From NCBI GenBank assembly GCA_021815405.1, contig JAKAGV010000001.1, forward strand, positions 496,001-560,000: a stretch of DNA of 64,000 bases. The letters run 5' to 3'. This stretch comes from Bacteroidota bacterium (GTDB lineage: Bacteria > Bacteroidota > Ignavibacteria > Ignavibacteriales > Ignavibacteriaceae). Positions 27,219 through 54,926 of the stretch are shown here, piece by piece. Every line of letters starts with the position of its first letter. Positions within the stretch are counted from its first letter, which is position 1. The position numbers and the translations under genes were made by a program. Under the pieces are notes generated by a model. The model worked only from the letters and a program-made list of their open reading frames with translations, was not told where the DNA came from and searched no databases.

Positions 27219-28610
27219 TTAGAAGAGTCTCTTTTGACCGTCTGCTTCGGGGGCCTGCACGTTATTTCGCAGATGAATTTCTTTTTCAACCTGAGCTCTT
27301 GATCGTGAATATTTCAGTCTCGATTCTTGAATAATTGCGGCTCTTATCGATTCGCTCAAATGAGGAATTGACATTGTAGTTCCGCTAAACGGCGATGATG
27401 TGATGCCATTAATCATGAGTTTTATATAGAGGTGGTAATTCGGGAGATTCATTAAATCGATCTCATCAAAGGGTGGAAAGAATTCCTTCTTCAAATATTG
27501 GGCATCGTCGATTCCAACTCTGAACGTGATCATTGTTCCGACGTTACCAAACACTGCGTCTCGAATCTGTTCCGGGAGCTGTCGGATATACTGATGTGCG
27601 AATACCAAATTGAGCCCATATTTCCGTGCTTCGGACAAGATGTTTGCGAAGGAGAGTGTAAGAAAATTATGGAACTCATCGACATAAAAGTAGAAGGGTC
27701 TCCGGCGTTCTTCAGAGGTATTCGCACGGCTCATTGCGGCAAGGAAAATCATGGTCGTAATCATTGAGCCGAGGAGGGTGCTGTTATCTTCCCCTATTTT
27801 TCCCTTCGAGAGGTTCACAATAAGAATCTTCCCCTGATCCATAATCTCCCGGAATTTGAAACTCGTCTGCGCCTGTCCCACGATGTTTCGGAGCGGCAGG
27901 TTCGTGAGAAACTGGCTCATCTTGTTCAAGATCGGTGCAATGGCTTCCGAACGTAGCCATGCGGAATACTTCGCAAACTCCTTGAACCAGAATTCGCGGA
28001 CGCCCAGATGCGTTACGTGTGTGAGCACCTGTTTTCGAAATGCCTCGTCGGTGAGGAGATTCGGAATATCGAGCAGCGTCCCTCCGGGATATTCGAGGAG
28101 GGTATAGAACGAATGGCGAAGAATATGCTCAAGCCGCGGGCCCCAGAACTCGCTATAGAGCTTTCTAAAAACCGAGATGAGCCCCGAGACCACGAGATAG
28201 TGGATGTCGGGACTTGAGGGTGTGAGCGGATTAAACGCGATGGGATACTCAATGTCACTGGGATTGAAATAGATGACGTCATGAGCTCTGTGCTCAGGAA
28301 TATGAGAAAGGAGTGTCTCAGCTAAGTCACCATGCGGGTCAATGACTGCAATGCCATTTCCCTGTTTAATATCTGAGATTGCCATGTTTGCCAGGAGACT
28401 CGATTTCCCGGTTCCGGTCTTTCCCACGATATACATGTGTCCCCTGCGGTTCTTCTCCTTGATGCCGAACTTCTTTCGGATGTCTCTCCAGTTCGTGAGT
28501 GCGATGGGGGTGATCTGATGGTGTTCATTCGGTGTGGAATCCATATATACGTTCATCATATGGATAATGCATGCACACAAAAAGTAAGGCGAATTGTTTG
28601 CGAAGCGCAA
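27219..28610 (-). CDS. Short TraD/VirD4-like conjugative coupling ATPase
   Basis: A 463-residue P-loop ATPase. Walker A is [20 protein letters not shown], followed by [17 protein letters not shown], the Walker B-type strand [13 protein letters not shown], and the sensor region [20 protein letters not shown]. This is the type IV coupling protein/TraM-recognition group that moves DNA to a conjugation channel. Unlike the related protein starting at 62491, it has no large N-terminal domain and no transmembrane segment. The TTG at 28610 has a strong AAGGAAGGAG 5 bases upstream; an ATG at 28559 is the alternative. It is transcribed towards the ArsR cassette and divergently from 28697. Confidence 0.85.
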
Positions 28611-28696
28611 AAACTCCTTCCTTATAAAATGGCCGGTTCGAATCCAGAATGAGAGTAGGTCATTTATAAATCAAATAAAGAAAGGAGTCATGTTGT

Positions 28697-29044
28697 ATGG
28701 AACATGCAAAGTCACTTGAGATATACACGCCGGACGGCACGTTGCTATTCAAGCTTATCATTGCCGAGACGGGAAGTATGGCGCGTCCTAAATCTGAACC
28801 AACGAACGGACACAATGGGAAACACGAAAAGGGAAACGGGAAGACAAACGGAGATACCATGACCGACCCGCAGCGGCGGATGCTTTTCCGGCTCATGGTC
28901 ACCAATTATCATCTTGAAGGAGATGAAGCCCACACAAAGCTCAAAGAGCTCTTTGGGGTTGATGACCTCAAGGATGTTTCAAAGTTCGAAGCGAGCAAAA
29001 CGATTGAACGGTTACTTGAAGAAGAGAAGGGAGGTGGCCAATGA
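28697..29044 (+). CDS. Hypothetical protein paired with RecB-like nuclease
   Basis: A 115-residue protein in two parts: a short N-terminal strand region (LEIYTPDGTLLFKLII), a hydrophilic linker rich in N, G and K, and a C-terminal helical domain (DPQRRMLFRLMV ... LKELFGVDDLKDVSKFEASK TIERLL, written here in parts). The helical part resembles small domains found beside phage-type single-strand annealing and nuclease genes. It overlaps the next start by four bases (ATGA), so the two proteins are made together. Confidence 0.7.
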   Translation: MEHAKSLEIYTPDGTLLFKLIIAETGSMARPKSEPTNGHNGKHEKGNGKTNGDTMTDPQRRMLFRLMVTNYHLEGDEAHTKLKELFGVDDLKDVSKFEASKTIERLLEEEKGGGQ

Positions 29045-29856
29045 TTGACCACCTCTCGAGTAGCCAGATCAATCTGTATTTGCAATGCGGGCTGAAGTAC
29101 AAATACCAGTATATCGACCACATACCCAAATCGTTTACGGTGTCAGCACTTGCGTTCGGCAGCGTATTTCACTCCACGCTGGATTGGTTTCATAAGCGGA
29201 TGATACAGGGCAAGAGCACCACGCTTGAAAACCTGTATCAGATATTCGATGTCGATTGGTACACCCTACGCATGGATGCCAACATTCGGTACAAACCGGA
29301 TGAAACTGAGGATCAACTGATTACGATGGGACGGGAACTCCTCTCCCGGTATTACCAGGAAAAGCACAAGCAGATCAAAGGATGTGAAGTGCCGTTCACG
29401 GTTCCTCTCTATGCGCCCGATAACGGGCACGAATTGGGAATTGCGCTTGAAGGATACTTCGACCTGATTGAAGCGGACGGCACCATCGTTGAGTTCAAAA
29501 CGTCTGCCGTTACCCTGAACATGAACGACATCGATACGCGCCTCCAGCTTACCGCCTACAGCTATGCGTATCAGATTCTAAACCGCAAGCCGCCGAAACA
29601 AATACGTGTCGTGGATTTTGTGAAAGCAAAGAAACCTAAGATCATTTCGATTGAGACGTCTCGAGATCGAAACGATGCGGTAGGGTTTCTTTATACCGCA
29701 CAGGAAGTCCTGCACGGCATCCAATCCAAAGTCTTTCCGCCACGATTAGGTTTCTGGTGCAAGGAATGCGAGTACGCTTCGATATGCCCGCTCTGGAAGC
29801 ATAAGGTTGCAGCCACTCAGAAAGAGCCTGTTTATGCTGAGGCAAATGTCCAATGA
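29041..29856 (+). CDS. PD-(D/E)xK nuclease, RecB/Cas4-like
   Basis: A 271-residue protein with the order expected for RecB/Cas4-type nucleases: an N-terminal helix with a lone cysteine (SSQINLYLQCGLKYKYQYID), the histidine of AFGSVFHSTLDWF, the acidic residue of LEGYFDLIEADG, the ExK motif in VEFKTSAV, and a QLTAYSYAYQIL helix. Three further cysteines (FWCKECEYASICPLW) at the C-terminus can hold a 4Fe-4S cluster with the N-terminal one. It probably acts in recombination or DNA end processing of the element. Confidence 0.85.
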   Translation: MIDHLSSSQINLYLQCGLKYKYQYIDHIPKSFTVSALAFGSVFHSTLDWFHKRMIQGKSTTLENLYQIFDVDWYTLRMDANIRYKPDETEDQLITMGRELLSRYYQEKHKQIKGCEVPFTVPLYAPDNGHELGIALEGYFDLIEADGTIVEFKTSAVTLNMNDIDTRLQLTAYSYAYQILNRKPPKQIRVVDFVKAKKPKIISIETSRDRNDAVGFLYTAQEVLHGIQSKVFPPRLGFWCKECEYASICPLWKHKVAATQKEPVYAEANVQ

Positions 29857-29867
29857 AAAAAATCTCA

Positions 29868-29896
29868 ATGCCCTGCAAACCGCAGGGCATTGTTTT
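29868..29896 (+). terminator. Rho-independent terminator
   Basis: ATGCCCTGC (29868-29876) pairs perfectly with GCAGGGCAT (29882-29890) over a 5-base loop, followed by TGTTTT. It separates the nuclease gene from the DUF932 gene. Confidence 0.75.
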
Positions 29897-29924
29897 ATCA
29901 ATCAACAAGAAAGGAAAGAATATT

Positions 29925-30881
29925 ATGAGTCATAATTTAAATGTCGTAAATGGAAAGGTCTCTATGATGTATGTGGGTGAAACCCCCTGGCATAATCTGG
30001 GGACGAAGCTTGATACGCCAGCAACCGCATCGGAAGCGATTGCAGCAGCCGGACTGGGGTTCCATGTGGAGAAAATGCCTCTAAGAATCGAAGGACTAGA
30101 TATACCGGTGCATGACCATTACGCCACGATGCGAACCGATACCAAGGATATTCTCGGTGTGGTCGGGTCGCGGTACATTCCCGTACAGAATAGGGATGCC
30201 TTCAGCACCTTCGATGCGCTGGTGGGCGAAGGGCAAGCCATATACCACACTGCGGGGGCGTTAGGGAAAGGAGAACGGATCTGGATACTTGCCAAGCTCC
30301 CCGATTACATTCGGGTGCGGGGTAATGACATTGTTGAGGAATACCTTCTCTTGACCAATACCCACGATGGAAGCAGCACGGTCTCGGTCAAGCTCACGCC
30401 TATTCGTGTCGTGTGTGAGAATACGTTATCAGTTGCACTCAATGGAACCGAACAGCAGGTACGCATACGGCATACGATGCAGGCGATAGAAAAGCTCAAT
30501 CAAGCGCACGAGATATTGGGACTGAGCAATAAGCTCTTTGAGGTTGTCAAACGTTATTTTACCGATATGAGCGATAAGGAACTCAATGCAGTCATGTTTA
30601 ATCAGTATGTTAACAAGGTGTTTCCACCGCCGCTCTTTACAATGCGTTCTTCCTACATGAAAGACGTGCATGAGAAAATAATCGAATTGTATGAAACGGG
30701 AGTCGGCGCCGAGCTATCGAGAGGAACGTTGTGGGGAGCCTACAATGCGGTGACTGAGTATGTCGATCATTATCGGCTTGAATCACGGTCTGATTCGATG
30801 CGGCTCAAATCAATCTGGTATGGCTCAGGAGATGGCATAAAGAAAAAGGCATTTCGCTGCGCAGTCGACATGCTGAATTAG
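29925..30881 (+). CDS. DUF932 phage/plasmid-like protein
   Basis: I chose the ATG at 29925 (MSHNLNVVNGKVSMMYVGET) because it follows AAGGAAAG by 6 bases; the frame is open further upstream through the terminator hairpin. Motifs of the DUF932 family are clear: ETPWHNLGTKLD, the YATMRTD strand, VGSRYIPVQNRDAF, and a LTPIRVVCENTLSVAL segment near the centre. The length of 318 residues is normal. Proteins of this family occur in phages and plasmids; the molecular function is not established. A terminator follows. Confidence 0.88.
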   Translation: MSHNLNVVNGKVSMMYVGETPWHNLGTKLDTPATASEAIAAAGLGFHVEKMPLRIEGLDIPVHDHYATMRTDTKDILGVVGSRYIPVQNRDAFSTFDALVGEGQAIYHTAGALGKGERIWILAKLPDYIRVRGNDIVEEYLLLTNTHDGSSTVSVKLTPIRVVCENTLSVALNGTEQQVRIRHTMQAIEKLNQAHEILGLSNKLFEVVKRYFTDMSDKELNAVMFNQYVNKVFPPPLFTMRSSYMKDVHEKIIELYETGVGAELSRGTLWGAYNAVTEYVDHYRLESRSDSMRLKSIWYGSGDGIKKKAFRCAVDMLN

Positions 30882-30891
30882 ACCAACTTAT

Positions 30892-30919
30892 GGAGAGCAA
30901 CAAATGCTCTCCTTTTTTT
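30892..30919 (+). terminator. Rho-independent terminator
   Basis: GGAGAGCA/TGCTCTCC with a 5-base loop followed by seven T's, 10 bases after the DUF932 stop codon. It marks the end of the backbone block; the composition becomes AT-rich after it. Confidence 0.92.
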
Positions 30920-31082
30920 AGAATATTTTAGGGTTAAGAAAAATATGTAGCTGGTTTTCGAACTTTTTCCCTTGTGAAGGTTTAGATCAATTTGCTTATT
31001 GTTTTAAATTCATTTTGAAATTATATAAATTTAAATATTGATCATTTCATAATTTTGAATTTACACGTGATGACAAGTAGTT

Positions 31083-31385
31083 ATGGTAAGTAAAAAATAC
31101 TCTGGTTCGCAAAAGGCAATATACAATTCTTGTAAAAAAGCGTTGGATAAACTAGGTTACAAAATCATTTCGGACAATGTTCGACAAGGAACCATTAAGG
31201 CAAAAAAAAAGAGTAGTTTTTTCTCATTTGGAAATAATATATCAATCAATGTTTCGCCAAAAAACGATAATGAAATTGAACTTTTGATTAAATCAGAATC
31301 TATTGGTATCCAAATTATAGACTGGGGAACTAATTCGGAAATTGAAAACGATCTTATTCAGTTAGTATCGAGCTACTTAATATGA
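31083..31385 (+). CDS. Small hypothetical protein, first of an overlapping trio
   Basis: A 100-residue soluble protein that I cannot place. The sequence (KKALDKLGYKIISDNVRQGTIKAKKK) suggests an alpha/beta fold in which an N-terminal helix packs on strands, and a closing helix NDLIQLVSSYL. It overlaps the next gene by four bases (ATGA). A 200-base AT-rich leader with no recognisable features precedes it. Confidence 0.65.
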   Translation: MVSKKYSGSQKAIYNSCKKALDKLGYKIISDNVRQGTIKAKKKSSFFSFGNNISINVSPKNDNEIELLIKSESIGIQIIDWGTNSEIENDLIQLVSSYLI

Positions 31386-31693
31386 AATTGTACGTCATAG
31401 ATGATAGTAATAACAAAATCTATTTGAACTTAAGTGCTTCTAATCGAAGTGAATTGAGGTCAACGATTGGAAGTGAGAAATTCTTCTTAAGGGAAAAACA
31501 ATTTTCTGTCTTTGACGTAAAAGCAGAAAATGAAATGAATAACTCGCTAACTGGTGCGATTGTTGGTGGTACTGTAGGTGCCCTAGGTGGACCTGTTGGA
31601 ATTCTAATAGGGGGGCTTGTTGGTGGAGTACTTGGCAATACAACTGACGAAAAAGAAAATGCGCGAGTTAATAGTTTTAATAATAGCAGATGA
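31382..31693 (+). CDS. Glycine-zipper membrane-active small protein
   Basis: A 103-residue protein with a soluble N-terminal half and a C-terminal hydrophobic hairpin rich in glycine: LTGAIVGGTVGALGGPVGIL followed by GGLVGGVLG. Glycine-zipper segments of this type insert in membranes and often oligomerise. The start overlaps the previous stop and its own stop overlaps the next start by four bases, so all three genes of the trio are coupled. Confidence 0.7.
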   Translation: MKLYVIDDSNNKIYLNLSASNRSELRSTIGSEKFFLREKQFSVFDVKAENEMNNSLTGAIVGGTVGALGGPVGILIGGLVGGVLGNTTDEKENARVNSFNNSR

Positions 31694-32229
31694 AAAATTC
31701 CATACCGAAATACGATTATAAACTCCTTGCTGTATCCATTATCATTCTAATAATACTAGCTGTCGCTTTCTACTTCTATTGGGATATCACGAAGAATATT
31801 ATCCGATCAGTACTTGAAACTAGATTTACTTCATTTATTCTTTGGGTTATTACGGTTTTTATTTTTATTGTCCATTATTTTAGAATCAGAAGTAAACACG
31901 CTGAAATTGAGCCTATAATTACAATAAAATTTGGCTATTTTGTTGATAACATTATCGGTGGAATAACCTTTGCTACCACTATTACAACCTCTTTAACCCT
32001 GTTGAAAGGATTGTATATTCAGACTGTTTTTGGAGACAAGATTTATTTTCATGGATTTCAGGATCAAGATTTATTGGCAATATTTGGTGTCGCTCTCTTT
32101 CTTCTTTATTATGCGATCATGAAGGTAATCAGTGTTGCTAAAGAAACATATGAAACTCAAAAGATGGAGCGTGTTAAAAACGAAGAAGGTGTTGAGGTAA
32201 TTCAGGAACAGCAAAATATCAAAAAGTAA
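31690..32229 (+). CDS. Membrane protein with four predicted helices
   Basis: A 179-residue protein. Hydrophobic segments at about residues 11-30 (LLAVSIIILIILAVAFYFYW), 45-65, 90-110 and 130-150 suggest four transmembrane helices, followed by a charged C-terminal tail (KETYETQKMERVKNEEGVEV). I recognise no family. It is third in the overlapping trio with a glycine-zipper protein, a layout seen in small defence or stress cassettes, but that function is only a guess. Confidence 0.65.
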   Translation: MKNSIPKYDYKLLAVSIIILIILAVAFYFYWDITKNIIRSVLETRFTSFILWVITVFIFIVHYFRIRSKHAEIEPIITIKFGYFVDNIIGGITFATTITTSLTLLKGLYIQTVFGDKIYFHGFQDQDLLAIFGVALFLLYYAIMKVISVAKETYETQKMERVKNEEGVEVIQEQQNIKK

Positions 32230-32281
32230 TATACTAAAAAGTTGAAACGATTCTATTTTTTAAAATGAAAAATTATTAGCC

Positions 32282-33412
32282 ATGTCGCGATTACCAAGTC
32301 CCAGAAACGGAGAAACGCTTATAGTTAATGAACAACCAGTTAAATATACATACTGGCCTATTAAATCTAGAGGAAAAGGTCGTCCTTCTCTCCAAACCCA
32401 AATTTTTACGAATGATCCTTTAAATGTTATTGAGTCGTCAATAAATCAAACGTGTCCTAGAAAAAGAAAAGAGGAAGCTTTTAGTTACTTAGATCAAGCA
32501 AAAGACTACCTTTCTGCTATAGTTTATTCACGCATTATCGCTGCCAAACCCATCCTTTCTTATTATGCAATGCTAAATATTGTAAAATCTTATATCCTTA
32601 CTTATGGAATTCAAGACAACCTTGGCAAAATCCAACATGGTATTTATGAAAGCAATTCTTCTAATCCACATTTCAGTGTAGACGAATTAAAATTCCTGCC
32701 ATCAAAAAGAAATAACCTTAGTGCTTTTGCAGAATTATATCGTCTATTAACAGGAGTTGAACTTGTTACCAGTAAAACGGTTCCTGTTAGCAATCTGTTT
32801 GCCCAAACAATTCTCGGACACAGGTTATGGTGTTCAGCAGCGAATCAAAATGAAAGATTTATTCAGGTTGCTCGTATTCAGTATGTACATAATGCAAAGG
32901 ATCAAGAACTCTGGTTACGACTATATTTCTACGTTGATGATCTAAAAGCTCTTGGTATCACTCATCAAAAGCTGCTTACTCAAGGTCGTTTTCAAAATGA
33001 TTTTCAAGAGATTGGAATTGATGAAAAAGAATCGGGAAGACAATTAATTTCTTTTGAACAGATTACACCTGTTTTATCAAGTAAGTGGCCTTCCGATAAA
33101 CTTGGTGAATTAAGCTGTTTAATAAAAAATAATCTTTGGAATATTCTTTTGAATGCACCGCCATACAGAAGATTTTATGCTTACATCGCGCCTACATCTG
33201 AGCATATATTTCCACAACTCATTTCCATTTATGCTCTAGCTTTTTATTTTGGGTCAATTACTAGATATCACCCCCACAAATTTAAGGAAATTCTAGAAAC
33301 TGATTATGGGGCATACGTACGAGAATTTATAGATTACCAAATTATACAATTTTTATTTTTAATTGCCGGAGAATTTAGCAAAAGGGATGTGGTAAAACCT
33401 TCTGTCATTTAG
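32282..33412 (+). CDS. YaaC-like protein
   Basis: A 376-residue soluble protein. The segment KEEAFSYLDQAKDYLSAI followed by PILSYYAMLNIVKSYIL, then NNPLLS-like conserved turns around HGIYE and FLPSKRNN, is the pattern of the YaaC family, which has a HEPN-like helical N-terminal half; family members are often found near toxin or defence genes. It starts 52 bases after the membrane protein and may be expressed with it. The function is unknown. Confidence 0.6.
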   Translation: MSRLPSPRNGETLIVNEQPVKYTYWPIKSRGKGRPSLQTQIFTNDPLNVIESSINQTCPRKRKEEAFSYLDQAKDYLSAIVYSRIIAAKPILSYYAMLNIVKSYILTYGIQDNLGKIQHGIYESNSSNPHFSVDELKFLPSKRNNLSAFAELYRLLTGVELVTSKTVPVSNLFAQTILGHRLWCSAANQNERFIQVARIQYVHNAKDQELWLRLYFYVDDLKALGITHQKLLTQGRFQNDFQEIGIDEKESGRQLISFEQITPVLSSKWPSDKLGELSCLIKNNLWNILLNAPPYRRFYAYIAPTSEHIFPQLISIYALAFYFGSITRYHPHKFKEILETDYGAYVREFIDYQIIQFLFLIAGEFSKRDVVKPSVI

Positions 33413-33548
33413 GTTGTAGATGTAATGTTAGTTCCCTTTAATGAATTCGCCTTGCAATCGTAGCTCAAGAGAACCAGCAATAAATATATCAGCTTTTTCT
33501 TTATTCTGCGTAATTTTTTATCAATGGAGATAGAAATACAGATTTTGA

Positions 33549-34340
33549 TTAGTAATTCATAATCAACATTTCTCGCCCAATCGGTTTTTGTTGTTTGATG
33601 TTCTTTTTATAATTTCCAACACTATACTTAGGTACATCTTTCATGACCATATTGAATCCTCTATAAGTTTTTCTCACGAGCTCATGGTCATAATAACTTA
33701 AAATGAATTTCCCCTTAATTTTATGCAAGATATGCGCTAATCGATTATGATCTTCCTGCTTAAAATCGACACCGCTTGTTTTATAGTACCGTTCACCTCC
33801 GACATAAGGCGGGTCTAAATAAAACAGAGTTGACTTTGAATCATACTTTTCAATGACTTTTTCAAAATCCAAACATTCAATTTGCACTTTCTTAAGCCGA
33901 GCATTAATGAGTTCAAGCCGATTAAGAAACGGTAACCACTTCCCGGAAAATCTAGGTGCGTTGATTCGGTATGCCCACGACGATCCGGTGCCAGAGAATG
34001 ACTGTACTCTCTGAATCGCATAGTGAATTGCCCTTTCTGTTTGAGGGATATATTTTTCACCTGAAAGTTTTTCTTTTGCCAGGTCAAACATAGCTCTACT
34101 ATGTAATGACCATTCTGCCTTATATGAAAACTCCTTATAACGATTACGAATTACCAAAAATAGATTTACTAAATCATGATTAAGATCGTTATATATTTCA
34201 ACAACACTGGGTTCCTTCTTAAATAATATCCAGCCTCCGCCACCAAAGACTTCACAATAAGTGAGGTCTTTATAATTTTTCGGGAAGTTGGAGATTATCC
34301 ACGGTGCCGTGTATGATTTTCCGCCGAAGTAAGGAATCAT
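33549..34340 (-). CDS. D12-class DNA adenine methyltransferase
   Basis: A 263-residue Dam-like N6-adenine methyltransferase. The AdoMet motif is MIPYFGGKSYTAPWI with VFGGGGWILFKK, and the catalytic motif is YLDPPYVGGERYY. A distal helix NRLAHILHKIKGKFILSYYD closes the catalytic domain. No restriction enzyme gene is adjacent, so it appears to be an orphan methylase that could mark the element or adjust its regulation. It is convergent with the YaaC-like gene and divergent from the next small gene. Confidence 0.9.
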   Translation of the reverse strand: MIPYFGGKSYTAPWIISNFPKNYKDLTYCEVFGGGGWILFKKEPSVVEIYNDLNHDLVNLFLVIRNRYKEFSYKAEWSLHSRAMFDLAKEKLSGEKYIPQTERAIHYAIQRVQSFSGTGSSWAYRINAPRFSGKWLPFLNRLELINARLKKVQIECLDFEKVIEKYDSKSTLFYLDPPYVGGERYYKTSGVDFKQEDHNRLAHILHKIKGKFILSYYDHELVRKTYRGFNMVMKDVPKYSVGNYKKNIKQQKPIGREMLIMNY

Positions 34341-37361: not shown

Positions 37362-37814
37362 CTAAAGCCTATAGGTTAACGGATTCAAAATCAAATGAGA
37401 TAAATATGCTTTCCTTAGCCTATCGGCACGCCGTTCTGCTTCTGTAAGATTTTGCACACGATCGACTAATTTAATTTTCCCCTCGGGTGTTAATTCATAT
37501 CCTGCAAATAACAAGACCTGATTTATTGCAGAGCGACGAGATTCAAAGTAGTCATGATTCTGGGTATAGTTCACCGGATTCATTACGATCATCAAGAATG
37601 CAAAAATGTTATTAGAGCAATTGTCTTCGTCTTGTTTTGCCCGCAAAGCTTCAAAAAGACGATCTCGTTTCGTTATTCCAGACAGGGGATCGTTAATACC
37701 CGCAGCAGCAAAATATTTTGCAATCTGGCTTCCAGTTAAACCCCCGGAAGTATCACCAACAACAGCGCAAAGATTTGCAAGAATTTCATTACTTAGTTTC
37801 GGATATGAGGCCAT
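37362..37814 (-). CDS. Abi-C / TIGR02391-associated domain protein
   Basis: A 150-residue protein with a pattern I know from abortive-infection-like proteins: LTGSQIAKYFAAAGI, KRDRLFEALRAKQDEDNCSN, NIFAFLMIVMNPVNY and RRSAINQVLLFAGYELTPEG. In related proteins this region precedes a TIGR02391 domain; here the protein ends shortly after LTEAERRADRLRKAYLSHLI, so it is the short form or has lost the second domain. It starts two bases after the stop of a 52-codon ORF and is followed by the membrane protein gene. Confidence 0.6.
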   Translation of the reverse strand: MASYPKLSNEILANLCAVVGDTSGGLTGSQIAKYFAAAGINDPLSGITKRDRLFEALRAKQDEDNCSNNIFAFLMIVMNPVNYTQNHDYFESRRSAINQVLLFAGYELTPEGKIKLVDRVQNLTEAERRADRLRKAYLSHLILNPLTYRL

Positions 37815-38006: not shown

Positions 38007-40358
38007 CTATTTCGTATGTGCTTTGCCGAGGTAAAGAAATATGGAATTTCGTTCCATTCCCGCCATGTCTAAGGCATACTTTTCTGGTAGTCTTTCGGTT
38101 TCTTCCATTTCCCAATAAGGGTGATAGGGTTCAAGCTCTCTGTTGCTGAGAATAATAAATCTTCTGCGCTCCGCTTTTAATGATTCAAAAAGTTTTATTT
38201 CATCTTCATCATATATATTAGCCGTTTTAGCAAAAATAATATAACATTCGAGCTTAATTTCCCGTAACTTGTCTTGTACGGCTTTTAAGTTATCGACATC
38301 TTTTTGATTAATCTTTTGTCCTTCGCTTTTACATTCTGCTATGCCAATTTGAATATTATCGCCTACTTCAAATTGTAGGATACAAAAATCAATTTCACAT
38401 TTCCTTGAGTTATGAAGATTGAGTGAAGTCGAATAAAATAATTTATGACTATCAAAAATTCTAGCGAAGGTTAGTAAACTTACAATAACTGGTATTGATC
38501 CTTCTTGGTTATTGTCTTTAGCAAATAATCCACTTCGTGAAAACCACCAATATTTATCAGTTCTACCCTGAAAATCCTCTCCGATAAATTGAGGCATAAA
38601 ATGCCTGAACTGGCAGTAAGGACAAATCCAATCATGTTCATAATTAGAGATTAGTATCTCTTCCTTGAGTCCACAATTTCTACATTTAAATTCCCTTTTT
38701 CTATTTAAAACCCTATAAATGAACTTTAACTTCGGAGAAAATATTCTCTTCTCTACTAAATAATCAAATACTTCAATCGCTTTTAATTTTTGATAATCTC
38801 TCGCCTTAATAAATAAATTTTGAAATTTTGAGAAGTTATTTTCTCCAATAATCTTAGCCGCTTCACTACGCGTTATTTTTCCACCTCGTTCAGTCTTAGG
38901 AGATTTAAGTAATTTTCTCACACCTGTTATTTTAAACACTCTGCATGCCTCTAATGGAAAGTCTTCTCTCATACCTTGAATAATCTGTTTTGCAAGAAGA
39001 CCCGCTTGGCTTGTCTTTGCCTTAAAGCCGGCCAGCTCAAAAACTTTTTGTATCAATATCTGATCGTTAATCGGGTAAAGGGAAAGTGAACTTTCATACG
39101 CTTTAATGATTACTCCGATCCCATCCTTTTCAGACCGAATACGCCAAGGATCAAATGCGATTGACCTACTGTAAAATTCGTTGAGTTTCCGTATGAAGGG
39201 TGGCTTTAATGTATGACCGGGATATGCAAATTCACTGAGCGTATCAACGGAGACTACTAGTTGTTGCGAGCTAACATTTCTATTTCGCTCAGCGTTTAAA
39301 AACTTCATTTCAGGTAATGCCACTGATACATTATATCTTTCATAACTCACATCCACATTTGCTAGCGTTTGCTGAGAACCAAAATAAAAACTGGCGGGTT
39401 TTATATTCAGTCCATTCCAGATGTGGTCACTGCAATGAGAAAAAAGAAAACGTTTAGTGCCCTGATATTCCTTAACTACTTTCTGAACGTCTTCATGGTT
39501 GGCGGAATAATAAACACATATCCAATCTTCAATATTGGGATTTCTGTTTGGCATTTCATCAAGTCCTTTTAAGTATCTCTTAATGAATTCGTCAAACCTC
39601 TGCAACTGATCTCTCGGTAGAAACTCAATAAGTAAACCTGAGGCGCGCAAGTTCCAAAAGTTCAAAAGGTCAATGAAATTATTGCTAAAACCCACATAGA
39701 TTCCATTCCCGCGCCATGTACCGCCATAGCCGGACAACTCTAGTGCAGTTGCATGAATTGGTGTAATTGATTTTGTAATAGAGCTATCAATGGTATCTTG
39801 CAAACCAATATTGACTACTTTTGATCTCAGCCCTTTCAAAAAGGCGTTTCGAAAATCTTCCTTTAAATTTAACGAGGTGGAAATATAGCCAAACAAAATG
39901 GAAAACAGGTTATTGCAAGGATCTAATTCTTCCCAATTAACAAGCGAACAATCACTCTTGAAATCTTCCGGCTTGTTCTTAAATTCTTTTTCCCAGTAAT
40001 GAGCAACAATATTAATCGTATCAAGATATCCTAAGATATTCTTTTTAGTATCCCAATCTTCATAAAAAATATTTTCAGCATAGTGGCTAGGATCGCGTAA
40101 GAACGGATTGTTTTTGATAAGTTCATCGATTTCATTTGAATGAGAAGTTGCAAACAAAACATCGACTGAAAAAAGGTCTAGGAGTTGATTGGAAAAATTA
40201 CTATTCGTCGGGGAAATCGGAATGATCGGGTTATGAATTCCTCCCCAAAGCAGAGTATTAATTTGGGCAGCCTTTACCATATCTTCTATACTTCCGTCTC
40301 GGACTAGAAATCCAATTCTAATGGGCCTATATTTCAAATATAGTGTCGTTGTTGCCAT
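38007..40358 (-). CDS. 783-residue putative defence nuclease (zinc ribbon and PD-(D/E)xK-like end)
   Basis: A large soluble protein I cannot name. The N-terminus (IRIGFLVRDGSIEDMVKAAQ, TLLWGGIHNPIIPIS, DVLFATSHSNEID) looks like a Rossmann-type alpha/beta domain. The centre is helical. A zinc ribbon with C559, C562, C579 and C582 (CRNCGL ... CPYCQ) leads into a domain with CEIDFCILQF (D657) and GIAECKSEG (E675, K677), which is the D-x(n)-ExK arrangement of PD-(D/E)xK restriction-endonuclease-like folds. It heads a four-gene same-strand run inside an island of other defence-type genes. A nucleic-acid-cutting effector is the most likely role by inference. Confidence 0.7.
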   Translation of the reverse strand: MATTTLYLKYRPIRIGFLVRDGSIEDMVKAAQINTLLWGGIHNPIIPISPTNSNFSNQLLDLFSVDVLFATSHSNEIDELIKNNPFLRDPSHYAENIFYEDWDTKKNILGYLDTINIVAHYWEKEFKNKPEDFKSDCSLVNWEELDPCNNLFSILFGYISTSLNLKEDFRNAFLKGLRSKVVNIGLQDTIDSSITKSITPIHATALELSGYGGTWRGNGIYVGFSNNFIDLLNFWNLRASGLLIEFLPRDQLQRFDEFIKRYLKGLDEMPNRNPNIEDWICVYYSANHEDVQKVVKEYQGTKRFLFSHCSDHIWNGLNIKPASFYFGSQQTLANVDVSYERYNVSVALPEMKFLNAERNRNVSSQQLVVSVDTLSEFAYPGHTLKPPFIRKLNEFYSRSIAFDPWRIRSEKDGIGVIIKAYESSLSLYPINDQILIQKVFELAGFKAKTSQAGLLAKQIIQGMREDFPLEACRVFKITGVRKLLKSPKTERGGKITRSEAAKIIGENNFSKFQNLFIKARDYQKLKAIEVFDYLVEKRIFSPKLKFIYRVLNRKREFKCRNCGLKEEILISNYEHDWICPYCQFRHFMPQFIGEDFQGRTDKYWWFSRSGLFAKDNNQEGSIPVIVSLLTFARIFDSHKLFYSTSLNLHNSRKCEIDFCILQFEVGDNIQIGIAECKSEGQKINQKDVDNLKAVQDKLREIKLECYIIFAKTANIYDEDEIKLFESLKAERRRFIILSNRELEPYHPYWEMEETERLPEKYALDMAGMERNSIFLYLGKAHTK

Positions 40359-40457: not shown

Positions 40458-40814
40458 TTATTCATCGAAGACTTCACAGTAGAGGCATTCCCAATCCGTT
40501 CCTGCGGGTCTTTGAGGATGTATATCATTATCCAGGTTGTTAAAATTATGGTAAATTTCACATTCTTTATCAAAAGCAGATTTCGGAGAGGAAAAGTAAC
40601 CGAATTTAAATCGTTTATATCTATTCTTACCAACCCATTTTTTTAACCTACCATTCACATCACTATCGGATCGTCCCACATAGTCAACAACAAAGGAGCC
40701 TACTTTTCTGCTTCTTTCTAGAACGTATACTCCAGATGAAGTTCTTGCTATATGCTCGTCAATACTCTCATTTGTGAGAGCATAAGGTCCGTTTATTAAT
40801 CCAGTGTTAGGCAT
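40458..40814 (-). CDS. GIY-YIG nuclease-like protein
   Basis: A 118-residue protein with GVYVLERSRK as the first strand (GIY equivalent), VVDYVGRSDSDVNGRLKKWV as the second (YVG, with the conserved arginine), and AFDKECEIYHNF carrying the glutamate expected in the helix after the core. It ends with a WECLYCEVF cysteine pair. Small GIY-YIG proteins are DNA nucleases or accessory domains in restriction and repair. It lies between the DUF6527 gene and the 783-residue gene and could belong to either cassette. Confidence 0.65.
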   Translation of the reverse strand: MPNTGLINGPYALTNESIDEHIARTSSGVYVLERSRKVGSFVVDYVGRSDSDVNGRLKKWVGKNRYKRFKFGYFSSPKSAFDKECEIYHNFNNLDNDIHPQRPAGTDWECLYCEVFDE

Positions 40815-40871: not shown

Positions 40872-41321
40872 TTAACCACTATCATGAAAAAAACTTTTGA
40901 CTCGGGCCCACCATCCTGATAGATTTTTTTCATTGTGTGATACTTTATTTGTCTTAAGGGGAGTACTTGTAGTCTTTTCCGTATAGTGGTGTTCATACGC
41001 AATCTGATCTTCAAGGCGGACTGCTTCAATTTCTTCCTCTGAAAATTGTCTTGCCCAAATTACTCTGTTATCGCGTATCCAATAATGTGACTTGCAACGA
41101 GTTCCCCAATTTCCGATTGAGGGATGTAACGTAATTGTTTCACCATTGAAAGTTAAAGACCAACCAGCTGGCGAAAGCGGAGTTACGATTTCAGTTCCGC
41201 ATCCACAACAACACTTATGAATAATTGTCGCGAATCGGATGCTAACATATACTCTTCCATCGCTAATTTTGGCAGGGACACTTTCTACAAATTCGAAATC
41301 TATTGTTTCTCGTCGGGGCAT
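40872..41321 (-). CDS. DUF6527 protein of ubiquitin-like cassette
   Basis: From the ATG at 41321 (MPRRETIDFEFVESVPAKIS; a GTG at 41330 is also in frame). Family signature: HKCCCGCGTEIVTPLSPAGW, then LHPSIGNWGTRCKSHYWI and a VIWARQF strand; the cysteines and histidine form a likely metal site. DUF6527 proteins occur next to E1-like and multiubiquitin genes and have been suggested to act as isopeptidases or modifiers in bacterial ubiquitin-like pathways. The gene overlaps the E1-like gene end by about 20 bases, so the three genes form one operon. Confidence 0.85.
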   Translation of the reverse strand: MPRRETIDFEFVESVPAKISDGRVYVSIRFATIIHKCCCGCGTEIVTPLSPAGWSLTFNGETITLHPSIGNWGTRCKSHYWIRDNRVIWARQFSEEEIEAVRLEDQIAYEHHYTEKTTSTPLKTNKVSHNEKNLSGWWARVKSFFHDSG

Positions 41322-42499
41322 ATTGAACACTCATTGATAATTGAATTCTGAGTAATCGAGTAAAATGATGAACACTCATGTGTCTCGTCTGCATAAAAGC
41401 CACACAATTTCTTCCATTTAATAACCGCTAACGCTGCATTGAGCGCATTAAGTTCTGCAATTTGTATGTTGTATCCGTATTCATTATTCACATCGCCATC
41501 CACAAAAGGAATCGTCTCTAAAACGTGGTCATTTTTTTCAAGAGTACTTGCAGTTGTTCGCACGACTCCTACAAGGTGCTCATCAATGGATTGGAGACCC
41601 ATTCCTACATCAATAAATGGTCTACCTGCTTGATGAAGCGCTTCAACAATTGCTTTCTTTATTTTACCCATATCAAGGCAAAGAAAGACAAAATTCATTG
41701 TGAGGAGTTCTTTTAGATTTTCTCCATCTATGTAGGCATCGTGGACTACAAGACCACGACGCATCACTGAGTAGCTTTGCTCGTAATAATTCACTTTTTG
41801 CGGCAGCGTCTCGAGCATTTCAATTGATGTTGCTCCTGGTGCTCGGAATGCATTATGAGAAGAAAATCGATCTCCATCATAGAGATGTATTTCTTTCACT
41901 GGTGTCTTTGCAATAAAGTCCAGAACATAGGCACCGGTTCCACCTAGTCCTATAATTGCCACTCGATCAATAGCTAGACGATCTGTTAAGGCACTAATCC
42001 CTGCCCGGCTTGATGACGTATCGGCATATTTAAAAACAGATTCAGATTCGGCAAGTGTATATGGTCGATGAGTTCTCGCATTTGCGTTTTTGTCTATAAG
42101 TTGCGCATATCCTTCCAAAATACCCACGTATGTTGTCATCTTTGCATAGTATGATGGAAATGGTGTATTTGGTCTTGCAGAAAAAGTTCGGTCTACTCGA
42201 AGGTCTCTATCAAGATTCTCTGGTCCACTTGGATTTGTAATCTCATTGATTACCTGCCCCTCAGCATTGCACGGCTGTTCGCCAATGAATTTTACCACAT
42301 GATCGTTTGGTGGATTTACTATTTCGCCAGAAAGATGAAGTGCAGCAACGAGCGTACCATAAACTACCTCTCTCCGAGAGTTTACGTATGGTACGTGTTT
42401 TACAAGCAAATGATTATTGCTTGTGCTCAGCCCTATTTCATACCCCTCGTTAACGAGTCGGCGTAAATCATCATTACGATCGATTAGTCTGTGTAACAT
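41300..42499 (-). CDS. E1-like activating protein with DUF6791 N-terminal domain and ThiF domain
   Basis: A 399-residue protein from the ATG at 42499. Residues about 1-100 match DUF6791 (LIDRNDDLRRLVNEGYEIGL, HLLVKHVPYVNSRREVVYG, HVVKFIGEQPC), a domain thought to be E2-like. Residues about 170-380 are a ThiF/MoeB/E1 adenylation fold: VAIIGLGGTGAYVLDFIAKT, with acidic LYDGDRFSSHNAFRAPG for ATP and magnesium. A cysteine-rich end (HECSS ... CSICPDEKQ) may hold zinc or the active cysteine. It should adenylate the C-terminus of the modifier encoded immediately upstream and pass it on; that is inference from the family. Confidence 0.85.
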   Translation of the reverse strand: MLHRLIDRNDDLRRLVNEGYEIGLSTSNNHLLVKHVPYVNSRREVVYGTLVAALHLSGEIVNPPNDHVVKFIGEQPCNAEGQVINEITNPSGPENLDRDLRVDRTFSARPNTPFPSYYAKMTTYVGILEGYAQLIDKNANARTHRPYTLAESESVFKYADTSSSRAGISALTDRLAIDRVAIIGLGGTGAYVLDFIAKTPVKEIHLYDGDRFSSHNAFRAPGATSIEMLETLPQKVNYYEQSYSVMRRGLVVHDAYIDGENLKELLTMNFVFLCLDMGKIKKAIVEALHQAGRPFIDVGMGLQSIDEHLVGVVRTTASTLEKNDHVLETIPFVDGDVNNEYGYNIQIAELNALNAALAVIKWKKLCGFYADETHECSSFYSITQNSIINECSICPDEKQ

Positions 42500-42755
42500 C
42501 AAAACTTGTGTTATTCTTTATCTTCACTGATTGTCCCGGCAAAAGTGTTCCCTCTGCTGGATGCTGATCTGCATGATGAAAAAGCACAGTAATTCGGATA
42601 CTATCACCTTTAGGAATACTCCCAAATGCTAAAATGACAACATCTTCATAGGTCAATATATCTGTAGTGACCTCTTTCTCTCTGGTATTCACAAAGATTT
42701 TATATACTTTTTCGTGTTTTTTTTCTTCTTGCTTTTCTTCTTTTTCAGATTCCAT
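42474..42755 (-). CDS. Multiubiquitin-family ubiquitin-like modifier (single domain)
   Basis: A 93-residue protein: a charged N-terminal lead (KEEKQEEKKHEKVYKIFV), then a beta-grasp pattern with VNTREKEVTTDILTYEDVVI, HHADQHPAEGTLLPGQSVKI and the ending SFDVTQTNRS. The same arrangement and a closing DVT.T..S motif are known in the multiubiquitin (Multi_ubiq) family located beside DUF6791-ThiF and DUF6527 genes. It does not end in Gly-Gly, and no precursor tail beyond a diglycine is visible. The stop overlaps the E1-like start by 26 bases. Confidence 0.85.
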   Translation of the reverse strand: MESEKEEKQEEKKHEKVYKIFVNTREKEVTTDILTYEDVVILAFGSIPKGDSIRITVLFHHADQHPAEGTLLPGQSVKIKNNTSFDVTQTNRS

Positions 42756-42819: not shown

Positions 42820-43893
42820 TTAGCCCTGCACAATCTTCAATCTCGGCCGAAGACTAGAAACTAAATTCCACTTTATTTTTCCTTCGTGACAAAGTCTGCC
42901 AGCAACAATACCAGGATGAATTTTAAGTGAAGCTGCAAATTCAACTATTGCCGATTTCGAAATTACATGATTTCTCTGGGAAAATTCAGAATAACCCTTG
43001 GAAGGAATTAACGTATTACTAGCAAATTCATCCGCTTCCTTTTCTTTATCCTTAGTATCAGTAAGGCTTCCTTTACTAAACTCGATAAATTTTTCTTTCC
43101 TCCCATGAAGCAACAGATGCCCTAATTCGTGAAACAAATTAAACCAAAAAATATCAGCCCAAGAATAGTATACGCTCAGTTGAATCAATGGATTGTTGTT
43201 TATCCATCTTACGGCACTACTTACACCTGCCCCTGGGAAATGTTCCATGTATACCAAAGCAATTCCAGCATCATTTAATAGCTTAGTTATTTCGCTTGAA
43301 AACTCCTCCGGTTCTTTCACTGACAATTGTTTAATATTTGCCAGTGACTGCTTGAGTTTTGATTCAGAATAATCCGGGAGGTTTTGCTTTTTGACTTCCA
43401 TCTCACCACACCGTAACCAGGCAGCTATAGATTCGCTTTTCACACCAGGAACCGTCCGTTTTCGAAAAGCAACAGATTCAGTAGTTGAGACGTAAGAAAG
43501 TGAATTCACCCCGAAAAATTTCCAAAGATTTTCGATTCGTTTTTCTTTATTTGATGTCTGTTCAACATATCCTCTTATGGCAAGTTCGTTGTAAGGAAAT
43601 CTCGATAGCAAAGGGACCTCTTCCTTCATTAAGGAGAGTCTCTCAATGCGTGCTTTCGTCTCTTGATAATTTTTTTCAAGATTAATCCAAAAACTAGCAG
43701 ATCCGCCCAATGCGTTCTCCAACAAAAGAGCTGTTTCAACAGTAATGGAAGCTTCTCCGTTTATTATTTGACTGAGATGTTTCTCTGTAATTCCCATTCG
43801 TTCACTAAGACTCTTTTGCGACATGCCTTCTCGAGCCAGCGTCTCAGCAATTATACGACCCGGATGTATGGCTTTATTTGGTATGTAACTCAT
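42820..43893 (-). CDS. higA: HigA-type antitoxin fused to ImmA/IrrE metallopeptidase
   Basis: A 357-residue protein. Residues about 10-70 are an XRE helix-turn-helix of the HigA group (HPGRIIAETLAREGMSQKSL, ITEKHLSQIINGEASI, ALGGSASFWINLEKNY). The C-terminal half is an ImmA/IrrE-type zinc peptidase with FHELGHLLLHGRKEK and a downstream EKEADEFASNTLIP giving the third ligand. It starts two bases after the HigB-like stop, in the order toxin then antitoxin normal for HigBA. It probably represses its own operon; the peptidase domain may relieve repression on a signal. Confidence 0.9.
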   Translation of the reverse strand: MSYIPNKAIHPGRIIAETLAREGMSQKSLSERMGITEKHLSQIINGEASITVETALLLENALGGSASFWINLEKNYQETKARIERLSLMKEEVPLLSRFPYNELAIRGYVEQTSNKEKRIENLWKFFGVNSLSYVSTTESVAFRKRTVPGVKSESIAAWLRCGEMEVKKQNLPDYSESKLKQSLANIKQLSVKEPEEFSSEITKLLNDAGIALVYMEHFPGAGVSSAVRWINNNPLIQLSVYYSWADIFWFNLFHELGHLLLHGRKEKFIEFSKGSLTDTKDKEKEADEFASNTLIPSKGYSEFSQRNHVISKSAIVEFAASLKIHPGIVAGRLCHEGKIKWNLVSSLRPRLKIVQG

Positions 43894-43895
43894 AA

Positions 43896-44240
43896 TTAAT
43901 GCTTATGATAATTTTCAAAAATTTCTATTATTACAATATTCTTTATGCTCTTGTAATTATCTATCCTGAAACCAGGATCTCCATCGTGATTAGGTTTAAA
44001 TATAACTCTGTGAACTTTATCGACGTCCACGGCAAAATGCCCTTTATACGAAGCCTTTAGAGGATGCGGACGATAACTCGGTGGAACATCTGCAAGAGTA
44101 TCGGCGGCAGTTAAAACATCTAATGTTGCCAAGATATCAGAGGCGGAGTCAACGCCCTTTTTCTTGTTATAGTGTTTTCTCAATGCTTCGTAATCATTCA
44201 CGAGCTTCTCATGTTTTGGATTGTCGAAGTCTATATTCAT
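43896..44240 (-). CDS. higB: HigB-like toxin
   Basis: From the ATG at 44240 (MNIDFDNPKHEKLVNDYEAL) the protein has 114 residues; the open frame extends upstream without likeness to the family. Features of the RelE/HigB fold are a KHEKLVNDYEALRKHY first helix, the strand PHPLKASYKGHFAVDVDKVH with the basic residues used for mRNA cleavage, and VHRVIFKPNHDG. It is followed at once by the HigA-type gene. HigB toxins cut translated mRNA on the ribosome. Confidence 0.85.
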   Translation of the reverse strand: MNIDFDNPKHEKLVNDYEALRKHYNKKKGVDSASDILATLDVLTAADTLADVPPSYRPHPLKASYKGHFAVDVDKVHRVIFKPNHDGDPGFRIDNYKSIKNIVIIEIFENYHKH

Positions 44241-44343
44241 GATAATGTGTAAGCATAAAAAGTCAACTTTTTTCTTTACCAAATTGGTAAATGAAAATTA
44301 CCATATTAATCGATAAAAGTCAAAGGTATTCTTATCCACAGCC

Positions 44344-53447: not shown

Positions 53448-54926
53448 TTACTTAACAAACAAAAGCTTTTTGATCAGCATGAAATTTCCCGCTTTCATAG
53501 TGTATAGATAGATTCCGCTAGTTAGCCTGCTTCCATTCAGAACCACTGAATATTTTCCCGGACTCTTTTCTCCGTTCACCAGCGTTGCAACTTCTCTACC
53601 AAGTATGTCATACACCTTGATTGAAACGAAACTCGATTTAGGAACTGAGTATTCAATTGTTGTCGTAGGATTAAATGGGTTAGGATAATTCTGACTCAAT
53701 GAATATGCGGAGGGCAAATTTGTTTTGCCGCCACTTATTCCAGTTATTGATCCGAGCCGGATAATGAGATTCGGTCTGTCTCTATCTCCGTAGTCACCAA
53801 GCCCTAATTGTCCCTGGCCGCCTGATCCCCATGCATAGAGGTTACCATCATTACCCACTGCCAGACTGTGGTATGAGCCAGCACTTACCGATTTCCAAGT
53901 TGTTACACCATTCGGGAACCAAACATTATGAGGTGAATCCTGATTATCAGTAATATCCAACTCACCAAGTCCCAATTGGCCTGAGACATTCAGTCCCCAC
54001 GAATAGAGCGCTCCGTCAGCGCTTATCGCGAGACTGTGATACCCACCCGCCGCAATTGCGCTCCATCCCGATACGCCGTTCGGGAGAGGGACGAGATTCG
54101 GCGTCCACATTATATTTCCATTGCCAAGACCTAATTGTCCGTAAGTATTATTACCCCACGAATACAGATTGCCGTCGCTCCCAATTGCCAAAGTGTGGTA
54201 TCCTCCGGCGGCTATCGTGTTCCAACTCGTGACACCGTTCGGAAGCGGAACCCGGAAAGGTGATAATTGAAAATAGTCATTCCCGATACCTAACTGCGTC
54301 CGATTGTTTTGGCCCCATCCATAGAGGTTTCCATCGTTCCCAATTGCGAGGCTAAAGTACGACCCCGCTGCAATTACCTTCCACCCAGAGACTCCATTCG
54401 GAAATGGGACTAACGTAGGTGTGCTTCGCGAGGTTGTATCCCCGAGTCCCAATTCACCGTCGCTGTTCAATCCCCACGAATAGAGATTGCCGTCATTGCC
54501 AATCGCTAAGCTATGAGACTCGCCGGCGGATATTGCGATCCATCTCGTAACCCCGGCAGGAAAATTAATTTTTTCAGGGTAATACCTATCGTCTAAGTCG
54601 CCAGTGCCTAACTGACCGTGATCATTCGCTCCCCACGCATAGAGGTTGCCATCATTCCCAATTGCAAGGCAAAACTGGAATCCGGCACTAATCGCTCGAA
54701 TTGATATTAACCCTCCCGGGATATAGACAATGACGGGCAGAGTAATGGTATCGGCAGTGTTACCACGGCCCAATTGACCGTGCTGATTGAATCCCCACGC
54801 GAATAAAGTTCCGCTCGTATCAACCGCATAGGATGAAGCGGAGCTTGATTCAGGCGCCAATAGTTGAGCAAATGAAAGTGAATTAATAAGAAAAAATAAC
54901 AGAACTGTAAAAAGCAACTTTTTCAT
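53448..54926 (-). CDS. Secreted RCC1-repeat propeller protein with T9SS tail
   Basis: A 492-residue protein with a signal peptide (MKKLLFTVLLFFLINSLSFA) and seven RCC1-type repeats of the form LAIGNDGNLYSWGLNSDGEL, about 50 residues each, enough for a closed seven-bladed propeller. The end is a complete type A sorting domain (SLSQNYPNPFNPTTTIEYSV, KVYDILGREVATLVN, TSGIYLYTMKAGNF), so it should be exported to the cell surface. Repeats are nearly uniform, which suggests recent amplification or strong conservation. It is convergent with pabBC and lies downstream of a small lipoprotein gene on the same strand. Confidence 0.9.
   Translation of the reverse strand: MKKLLFTVLLFFLINSLSFAQLLAPESSSASSYAVDTSGTLFAWGFNQHGQLGRGNTADTITLPVIVYIPGGLISIRAISAGFQFCLAIGNDGNLYAWGANDHGQLGTGDLDDRYYPEKINFPAGVTRWIAISAGESHSLAIGNDGNLYSWGLNSDGELGLGDTTSRSTPTLVPFPNGVSGWKVIAAGSYFSLAIGNDGNLYGWGQNNRTQLGIGNDYFQLSPFRVPLPNGVTSWNTIAAGGYHTLAIGSDGNLYSWGNNTYGQLGLGNGNIMWTPNLVPLPNGVSGWSAIAAGGYHSLAISADGALYSWGLNVSGQLGLGELDITDNQDSPHNVWFPNGVTTWKSVSAGSYHSLAVGNDGNLYAWGSGGQGQLGLGDYGDRDRPNLIIRLGSITGISGGKTNLPSAYSLSQNYPNPFNPTTTIEYSVPKSSFVSIKVYDILGREVATLVNGEKSPGKYSVVLNGSRLTSGIYLYTMKAGNFMLIKKLLFVK

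Follow-up and report, generated by a model that had tools for sequence, protein, structure and literature searches.

A Bub-related candidate ubiquitin-like conjugation operon whose modifier ends in serine

We analysed a stretch of 64,000 nucleotides (nt) from a Bacteroidota bacterium of the family Ignavibacteriaceae (assembly GCA_021815405.1, contig JAKAGV010000001.1, positions 496,001 to 560,000), which is called the window in the following. On its minus strand, window positions 40872-42755 encode a ubiquitin-like modifier, a fusion of the domain DUF6791 with a ThiF-type activating (E1) domain, and a DUF6527 protein; according to the list of open reading frames (ORFs) and Pfam, all three genes overlap. 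The modifier ends in FDVTQTNRS, i.e., without Gly-Gly, and its terminal serine recurs in every relative of the same branch. We propose that the operon encodes a compact system for ubiquitin-like conjugation, a mobile and stress-regulated sister of the Bub pathway, whose modifier would be activated at its serine and handed on by a serine of DUF6791. We give this overall reading an even chance of being correct. What is added here is the invariant Ser end fixed by a gene overlap, the single Gly by which most modifiers read from the sister branch differ from it, and the assignment of DUF6791 as E2-like (i.e., conjugating-enzyme-like). Part of this may already be described in Gong 2025 and Ye 2026.

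Operon layout and modifier C-terminus

A preliminary description of this DNA had named three overlapping genes for a single-domain multiubiquitin-family protein, a DUF6791-ThiF protein and a DUF6527 protein. This layout is borne out by Pfam matches for all three on the minus strand (Table 1), and PF14452 matches the modifier, which has 93 amino acids (aa), only once. The DUF6791-ThiF protein has 399 aa, with the E2-like domain at about residues 1-135 and the E1 adenylation domain at about residues 164-395. It matches the NCBIfam model NF004805 ('hypothetical protein') with 530.9 bits compared to a cut-off of 352. Its start is probably the ATG at 42499 and not the upstream TTG at 42502 of the mechanical ORF list, because the alignment with most relatives begins at the second residue of the TTG-started ORF; the modifier and E1 genes therefore overlap by 26 nt. 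Neither the three operon proteins nor seven scanned neighbours show a Pfam match to JAB. The source genome holds one match to DUF6791 and one to Multi_ubiq.

A modifier and E1 with the same junction were found at 44 other loci and on 2 viral contigs. The respective alignment has 47 rows, i.e., 31 loci including the window, 14 further plasmid loci and the 2 viral contigs. Here, a terminal Ser followed by a stop closes the modifier in 47/47 rows (43/43 without near-duplicates), and a Gly-Gly end is absent from all 47. In 45/47 rows, among them the window, the distance from the E1 start to this stop is 26 nt; for the remaining two (L117, L118), the E1 is annotated to begin five codons further upstream and the modifier stop falls on the same aligned codon. 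Within the first 31 loci, 29 modifiers have Thr at tail position -4 and 30 have Phe at position -9. Modifiers of at most 105 aa occur at 21/45 loci and are probably single-domain, as judged by length only.

That the window's modifier ends in TQTNRS without a diglycine had been noted before, along with the proposal to align the C-termini of homologous modifiers. The alignment extends the observation to the whole branch, and a local loss of Gly-Gly in the window is rejected since all 47 rows end in Ser. An ancestral Gly may rather have been replaced branch-wide, because none of the 47 has a diglycine and six modifiers of the sister branch share one Gly (see below).

A profile of 20 members of the modifier family matches PDB entry 9cd2 (E 2.6e-25) up to the last residue of that entry. 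This ZDHYS365 multi-ubiquitin domain protein, which we take to be a Bub modifier, has 222 aa and, judged by length, several domains, compared to one domain in the window's modifier. Its last domain matches the modifier family and ends in TQTDKS, and by sequence it is a modifier of the DUF6791 branch. Matches of the modifier to designed PPR proteins in the PDB were dropped as repeats of one short chance match.

Coding constraint in the overlap

The modifier tail is read within the first nine E1 codons, such that its serine could be a mere shadow of the coding constraint on the E1 start. We consider this very improbable, and the tail as a by-product of E1 coding is rejected on the substitution counts and the entropy in the overlap. 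Among the 31 loci, the overlap shows 918 pairwise single-base differences (from pairs that are not independent), of which 647 alter E1 but are silent in the modifier, 114 alter the modifier but are silent in E1, 156 change both proteins and 1 changes neither. Furthermore, E1 residue 8 is variable (R 10, L 12 and H 9 of 31) while the terminal Ser codons TCG, TCT and TCA are synonymous. None of the 47 rows combines non-overlapping genes with a modifier that has another end.

The entropy pattern tracks the modifier frame as well. By E1 codon position, the overlap shows entropies of 0.79, 1.18 and 0.96 (43 rows), where the peak of 1.18 is the modifier's third position and 0.96 is that of E1. Beyond the overlap, the respective E1 values are 1.07, 0.84 and 1.75 (43 rows), i.e., the peak is at its own third position. 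Judging from these sequence comparisons, the modifier frame is selected in the overlap. Both frames are constrained there, the modifier's more so, because every overlap position varies less than a free third position. The exact modifier end is kept, as would be expected if its terminal carboxylate were the reactive group.

E1 and DUF6791 domains

The AlphaFold model of the full DUF6791-ThiF protein (8 sequences) has a predicted local distance difference test score (pLDDT) of 71. For its ThiF part (residues 164-395), the best fold match is Citrobacter BubCD (9ea4; Z 23.3, root-mean-square deviation 2.6, 217 residues aligned; Foldseek E 3.3e-12), followed by the SUMO E1 (Z 21.8). MccB, ThiF and MoeB are also among its matches (Z 20 to 22). 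The adenylation residues were picked by analogy to MoeB/ThiF, and their statistics, like those of the DUF6791 residues below, cover 43/45 loci, since the split genes of L090 and L094 were left out. G186, D208, R219 and K235 are found in 43/43 E1s, D210 and D276 in 42/43 and N216 in 41/43. That is, the residues whose absence was to speak against an activating enzyme are present in 41-43 of 43 relatives, and the E1 of the DUF6791 branch has the BubC fold with an adenylation site that characterises Bub.

Modelled alone (pLDDT 80.7, predicted template modelling score 0.78), DUF6791 has its best fold match in Citrobacter BubB (Z 8.0, root-mean-square deviation 4.0, 122/128 residues aligned). Second-ranked is Cap2 of CBASS (7tqd, Z 5.2), which carries an E2 and then an E1 in one chain. 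The other 48 of the 50 fold matches listed are E2s, ubiquitin E2 variants or complexes, most with E2 in the title, and the 50 Foldseek matches listed are E2-type entries and complexes by title. Given these models, DUF6791 is most probably an E2-like domain. Three matches of a DUF6791 profile to the PDB (E 0.14 to 0.65) were dropped as unrelated proteins. The fusion is naturally split at two loci: DUF6791 and ThiF are overlapping separate genes in L090 (6742-7942) and, by ORF, in L094 (6153-7338), as are the separate BubB and BubCD genes of Bub.

Four DUF6791 residues, namely H67, S107, K120 and Y124, are invariant (43/43). Cys77, which adjoins the invariant Pro76, is present in 28/29 of the first full-length E1s (Phe in L007) and 37/43 of the wider set, with His, Phe, Tyr or Leu in the other six. 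An invariant catalytic Cys as in a cysteine E2 is thus not found at this position, and no further DUF6791 column has Cys in at least 10/43. Based on its spacing from His67, Cys77 had been favoured as the E2 residue at first, and was lowered after the wider set gave 37/43. His67 directly precedes strand 69-72 of the predicted secondary structure, so its position differs from that of the HPN histidine in E2s. BubB-like domains contain an invariant Ser as well, in most within RWSRH (column invariant in eight sequences).

DUF6527 protein

The third protein shows the pattern C-x3-C-x34-C-x2-H, which is predicted to bind metal, plus conserved Ser/His residues. Its gene was found at 42/45 loci including the window by a script that asked for two or more of four motif words, and thereby favours residues inside those words. 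Numbered from the GTG start, C40, C42, G43, C44, P70, S71, G73, C79, S81, H82 and Y83 are present in 42/42 and H38 in 41/42. Concerning the three misses, L116 is annotated as having the gene, the copy of L118 is diverged and without H38 or G73, and in L108 an IS256 transposase comes next. Two DUF6527 proteins of the JAB branch that we compared are also without H38 and G73. From these residues, DUF6527 is a candidate target-binding or peptidase subunit, and its Ser/His could serve a peptidase.

Relation to known systems

To relate the branch to its sister, we searched 395 genomes of the phylum and found Multi_ubiq in 22 and DUF6791 in 14 (source genome included). The eight Multi_ubiq genomes without DUF6791 provided nine loci. 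By Pfam, nine proteins from five of these loci comprise three ThiF proteins with JAB (below cut-off in L103), four Prok-E2_E proteins, one DUF6527 protein and a small protein of L097 without a Pfam match. Modifier tails were aligned from 6/9 loci, leaving out L097, L102 and L104 (match below cut-off). The six share one invariant Gly ten residues after a conserved Phe (F+10), whereas the DUF6791-branch modifiers have their Ser end at F+8. Two of the six stop at that Gly, and the other four run on with an E2-like domain. It looks from these sequences as if modifiers of the JAB branch are cut after Gly while those of the DUF6791 branch are made ready-ended with Ser.

Citrobacter Bub (BubA, BubB and BubCD; 9ea4, 9ea5, 9ea8, 9eae, 9eav) provides the nearest fold for both parts of the fusion protein, i.e., BubCD for the E1 and BubB for DUF6791. 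The Bub-like relatives of the JAB branch have Multi_ubiq modifiers too, one with a DUF6527 gene by Pfam. In contrast, Bub contains a JAB (BubD in BubCD), while the DUF6791 operon is without JAB and has its E2-like domain fused ahead of the E1. Based on sequences and models, we regard the operon as a relative of Bub, namely a sister form with an E2-E1 fusion in place of the JAB-E1; it is called a sister branch because it has no JAB. Ye (2026) reportedly found ester intermediates in Bub as well as type II Bub operons with a Ser-His protease, which may be the DUF6791 branch. M78/WYL-type regulators are common to both systems (PMC13373217).

Iyer 2006 (PMC1779556) describes type 6e polyUbl operons with 1-3 ubiquitin-like (Ubl) repeats, including a case with a solo Ubl, and a subset in which the E1 bears a domain X for JAB, for which a JAB-like action was speculated. 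As in the window, the E1 of this subset has a non-JAB N-terminal domain. Its third protein is metal-binding, and the pattern C-x3-C-x35-38-H-x2-C has the residues of the predicted DUF6527 site with the last two ligands swapped. By its modifier and E1, the window operon fits the X-domain subset so described, and we infer that domain X is DUF6791. The proposed JAB-like peptidase role is disfavoured by the BubB-like fold. The same text reports no glycine or highly conserved C-terminal residue for most of its new families, whereas Ser is invariant in the DUF6791 branch. In the literature searched, we found no mention of DUF6527 or DUF6791. CBASS Cap2 differs in that the operon has its own modifier gene, no cyclase among the scanned genes and a Cys that is not strictly conserved.

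Proposed mechanism and alternatives

In the mechanism we propose, the modifier would be adenylated by the ThiF domain at the C-terminal carboxylate of its Ser. It would then pass to a nucleophile of DUF6791, most likely Ser107 helped by His67, forming an ester and not a thioester, and would finally be attached to a target, in whose selection or release DUF6527 may assist. Maturation by a JAB would not be needed, because the modifier gene ends at the active residue. The upstream genes with helix-turn-helix (HTH) and M78 domains would probably switch the operon on after DNA damage or phage attack. We infer both the activation at Ser and the Ser-based transfer. A stronger form, which seems possible yet clearly more doubtful than the overall reading, is that the branch swapped its C-terminal Gly for Ser, such that the modifier would be born mature, adenylated at Ser and carried as a serine ester on DUF6791 with neither a Cys step nor a maturation protease, its end being locked by the 26-nt overlap.

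Several observations weigh against this mechanism. The Z of 8.0 for DUF6791 is at the upper edge of what is typical (7 to 8) for a best match when there is no clear one; its best E2 match by Foldseek has E 0.05 and is not significant, nor is the profile comparison of DUF6791 with Prok-E2_E (probability 0.5% and 1.2%, P 0.044), and the DUF6791/ThiF models are built on 8 sequences only. The preliminary description had taken DUF6791 for the likely E2 and named a missing E2-like fold as grounds for giving this up; the fold comparison speaks for its view by the match to BubB, while the profile comparison and Foldseek do not add to it. The E1s of L115, L116, L117 and L118 are each without one adenylation residue. 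Ser107 agrees with the BubB-like Ser in its place before the last helix by eye only. The last domain of the L097 modifier ends in ATEVA without the Gly, i.e., the Gly/Ser contrast between the branches is not clean.

Among the alternatives, we consider it unlikely that the tail is a pro-peptide, i.e., that a peptidase (DUF6527 or DUF6791) clips the T-x-T-D-K-S tail and an internal residue is activated. This would agree with a review that ascribes a specific protease to Bub operons (PMC12687455), with the guess of a JAB-like domain X in Iyer 2006 (PMC1779556), with the Ser-His protease reported for type II Bub operons, and with the conservation of S71, S81 and H82 (42/42) and H38 (41/42) in the motif-picked DUF6527 set; the two sister-branch proteins aligned lack H38. 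However, a discarded tail needs no identical last residue and stop in 47/47 rows, DUF6791 looks E2-like, and a peptidase that acts on conjugates after Ser fits the proposed mechanism equally well. Somewhat less probable still is that DUF6791 works as a conventional cysteine E2 via a Cys77 thioester, as in Cap2 or Bil. The frequency of Cys77 beside the invariant Pro76 argues for it (28/29 and 37/43, respectively), but six of 43 lack this Cys while Ser107 and His67 are present in 43/43. Five of these six exceptions come from the wider plasmid set, such that a nucleophile change in distant members is possible.

An E1 domain that modifies the modifier's C-terminus itself, by MccB-like adenylation or as for a ThiS-like sulphur carrier and without conjugation, appears quite improbable to us. 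MccB, which works on a C-terminal Asn, is a precedent for a non-Gly end, and MccB, ThiF and MoeB are found among the E1 fold matches at Z 20 to 22. On the other hand, the E1 seems to carry a fused E2-like domain, and its nearest fold is BubCD.

If serine activation and transfer hold true, a C-terminal glycine would not be required for the E1 activation of a ubiquitin-like modifier, and DUF6791, a domain of unknown function, would gain an E2 role. The operon is small (three genes) and offers single-residue tests at the Ser end, Ser107, His67 and Cys77. It would also help to place two sub-branches of Bub/6e and their swap of JAB-E1 for an E2-E1 fusion.

Neighbouring genes and regulation

Table 1. 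Features of the operon and its direct neighbourhood (window positions).
Feature	Position	Strand	Evidence
Ubiquitin-like modifier, Multi_ubiq, one beta-grasp domain, BubA-like, tail VTQTNRS	42474..42755	-	PF14452 E 5.4e-9
DUF6791-ThiF fusion	41300..42499	-	PF20590 E 2.1e-49, PF00899 E 8.3e-11, NF004805
Modifier/E1 overlap, 26 nt, two reading frames	42474..42499	-	same aligned stop, 47/47 rows
DUF6527 protein	40872..41330	-	PF20137 E 1.8e-25
HigA-type HTH fused to Peptidase_M78 (ImmA/IrrE)	42820..43893	-	HTH_3 4e-11, Peptidase_M78 3.4e-10, TIGR02607 HigA 2e-17
HigB/RelE-like toxin gene, partner of HigA-M78	43896..44282	-	PF05015 1.8e-4, under cut-off
Small protein with GIY-YIG-like motif, neighbour	40458..40814	-	motif by eye

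The HigA-M78 gene lies 64 nt upstream of the modifier gene on the same strand and is likely a regulator of the operon. At locus L087, in a genome from the same taxonomic order as the source, all five genes recur in unchanged arrangement, with HigA-M78 75% and HigB 72% identical to those of the window; the E1 of this site (L014) is 49% identical. Pfam identifies an M78 gene no more than about 2.2 kb upstream, on one or the other strand, in the window and 11/22 other unannotated loci. L004, L007 and L085 have an M78 look-alike by eye, L089 has a sigma-70-like gene and L082 a protein with weak STAS-like and HTH matches, which resembles CapS as presented in PMC13373217. In L092 and L093 the contig ends within the upstream region, and no M78 was recognised in L001, L002, L086 and L095, for which only part of the ORFs was scanned. 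Upstream of the 22 annotated plasmid loci, we find ImmA/IrrE plus HTH in 8, a WYL protein in 2, and HigA, XRE, Xre-RES, CopG and sigma-70 in 1 each; 7 have none of these regulators, including L112 with a MarR gene and L115 with PhnF.

Similar neighbours are reported in two papers: 70% of the Multi_ubiq genes adjoin such HTH/M78-type pairs (PMC4963859), and 219/544 Bub operons adjoin the DNA-damage-responsive CapW or CapH+CapP (PMC13373217). Given the upstream regulators found here and these published neighbours, the system is likely stress-inducible. An antiphage action of the operon is a guess. A review describes such systems as apparently acting for the most part in phage defence (PMC12687455), and a 2026 paper from the group that named Bub says that protection against phage has not been shown for Bub operons (PMC13373217).

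Beyond DUF6527 follows an ORF with a GIY-YIG-like motif (GVYVL...YVGRS, by eye only), which has no Pfam match up to E 1 and no NCBIfam match. GIY-like ORFs are seen by eye near L001 and L089, and no GIY-YIG gene is named around the 22 annotated plasmid loci. The GIY-YIG gene of the preliminary description is thus reduced to this motif, and its membership in the system is unsupported. The HigA-M78 protein also matches PADLOC PD-Lambda-2_B (E 7.8e-40), and by sequence the HigBA pair could be a toxin-antitoxin of defence type in its own right.

Distribution and mobile setting

Relatives of the DUF6791 protein occur in 114 plasmid records, and the DUF6791 operon is found on plasmids of at least five phyla as well as on chromosomes. 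None of 12 other genomes of the genus has DUF6791, and no relative was found in phage records. A search of viral contigs with the single protein gave no match, while the search with an alignment gave four ThiF matches, of which two are full-length and two partial. The two full-length DUF6791-ThiF genes (IMG/VR; L126:2188-3360 and L127:5001-6095) come with the same Ser-ended modifier.

In the window, a comM/YifB-like gene (Mg_chelatase, ChlI) stops after 351 aa where it meets the gene of a large serine recombinase, which runs on the opposite strand (21078-23619, junction at about 22.1 kb). A second comM-like gene of 512 aa follows 36.7 kb beyond the first (58797-60335). Judging from these putative ends, an integrative element in comM probably carries the operon. 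No tRNA was found in the 64-kb window, and no RNA family reaches its gathering score at 36-46 kb.

Further genes of the island are located at 27219-34340, where a TrwB/TraD-like coupling ATPase, a PD-(D/E)XK protein, a DUF932 protein and a D12-class DNA adenine methyltransferase suggest conjugation and defence-like cargo. A 150-aa protein (37362-37814) matches PADLOC PD-Lambda-3_B (E 4.2e-26) and adjoins a 173-aa protein that is hydrophobic by eye; by sequence, this pair is a candidate second defence unit. The 783-aa protein at 38007-40358 has no NCBIfam match and reaches the cut-off of no Pfam family; its similarity to a zinc ribbon and a Card1-like nuclease is weak. A repeat protein at 53448-54926 has a YPNPFNPTTTIEY-type tail, which we take to be a sorting signal of the type IX secretion system (T9SS) and which would suggest a host from the Bacteroidota/Chlorobiota group.

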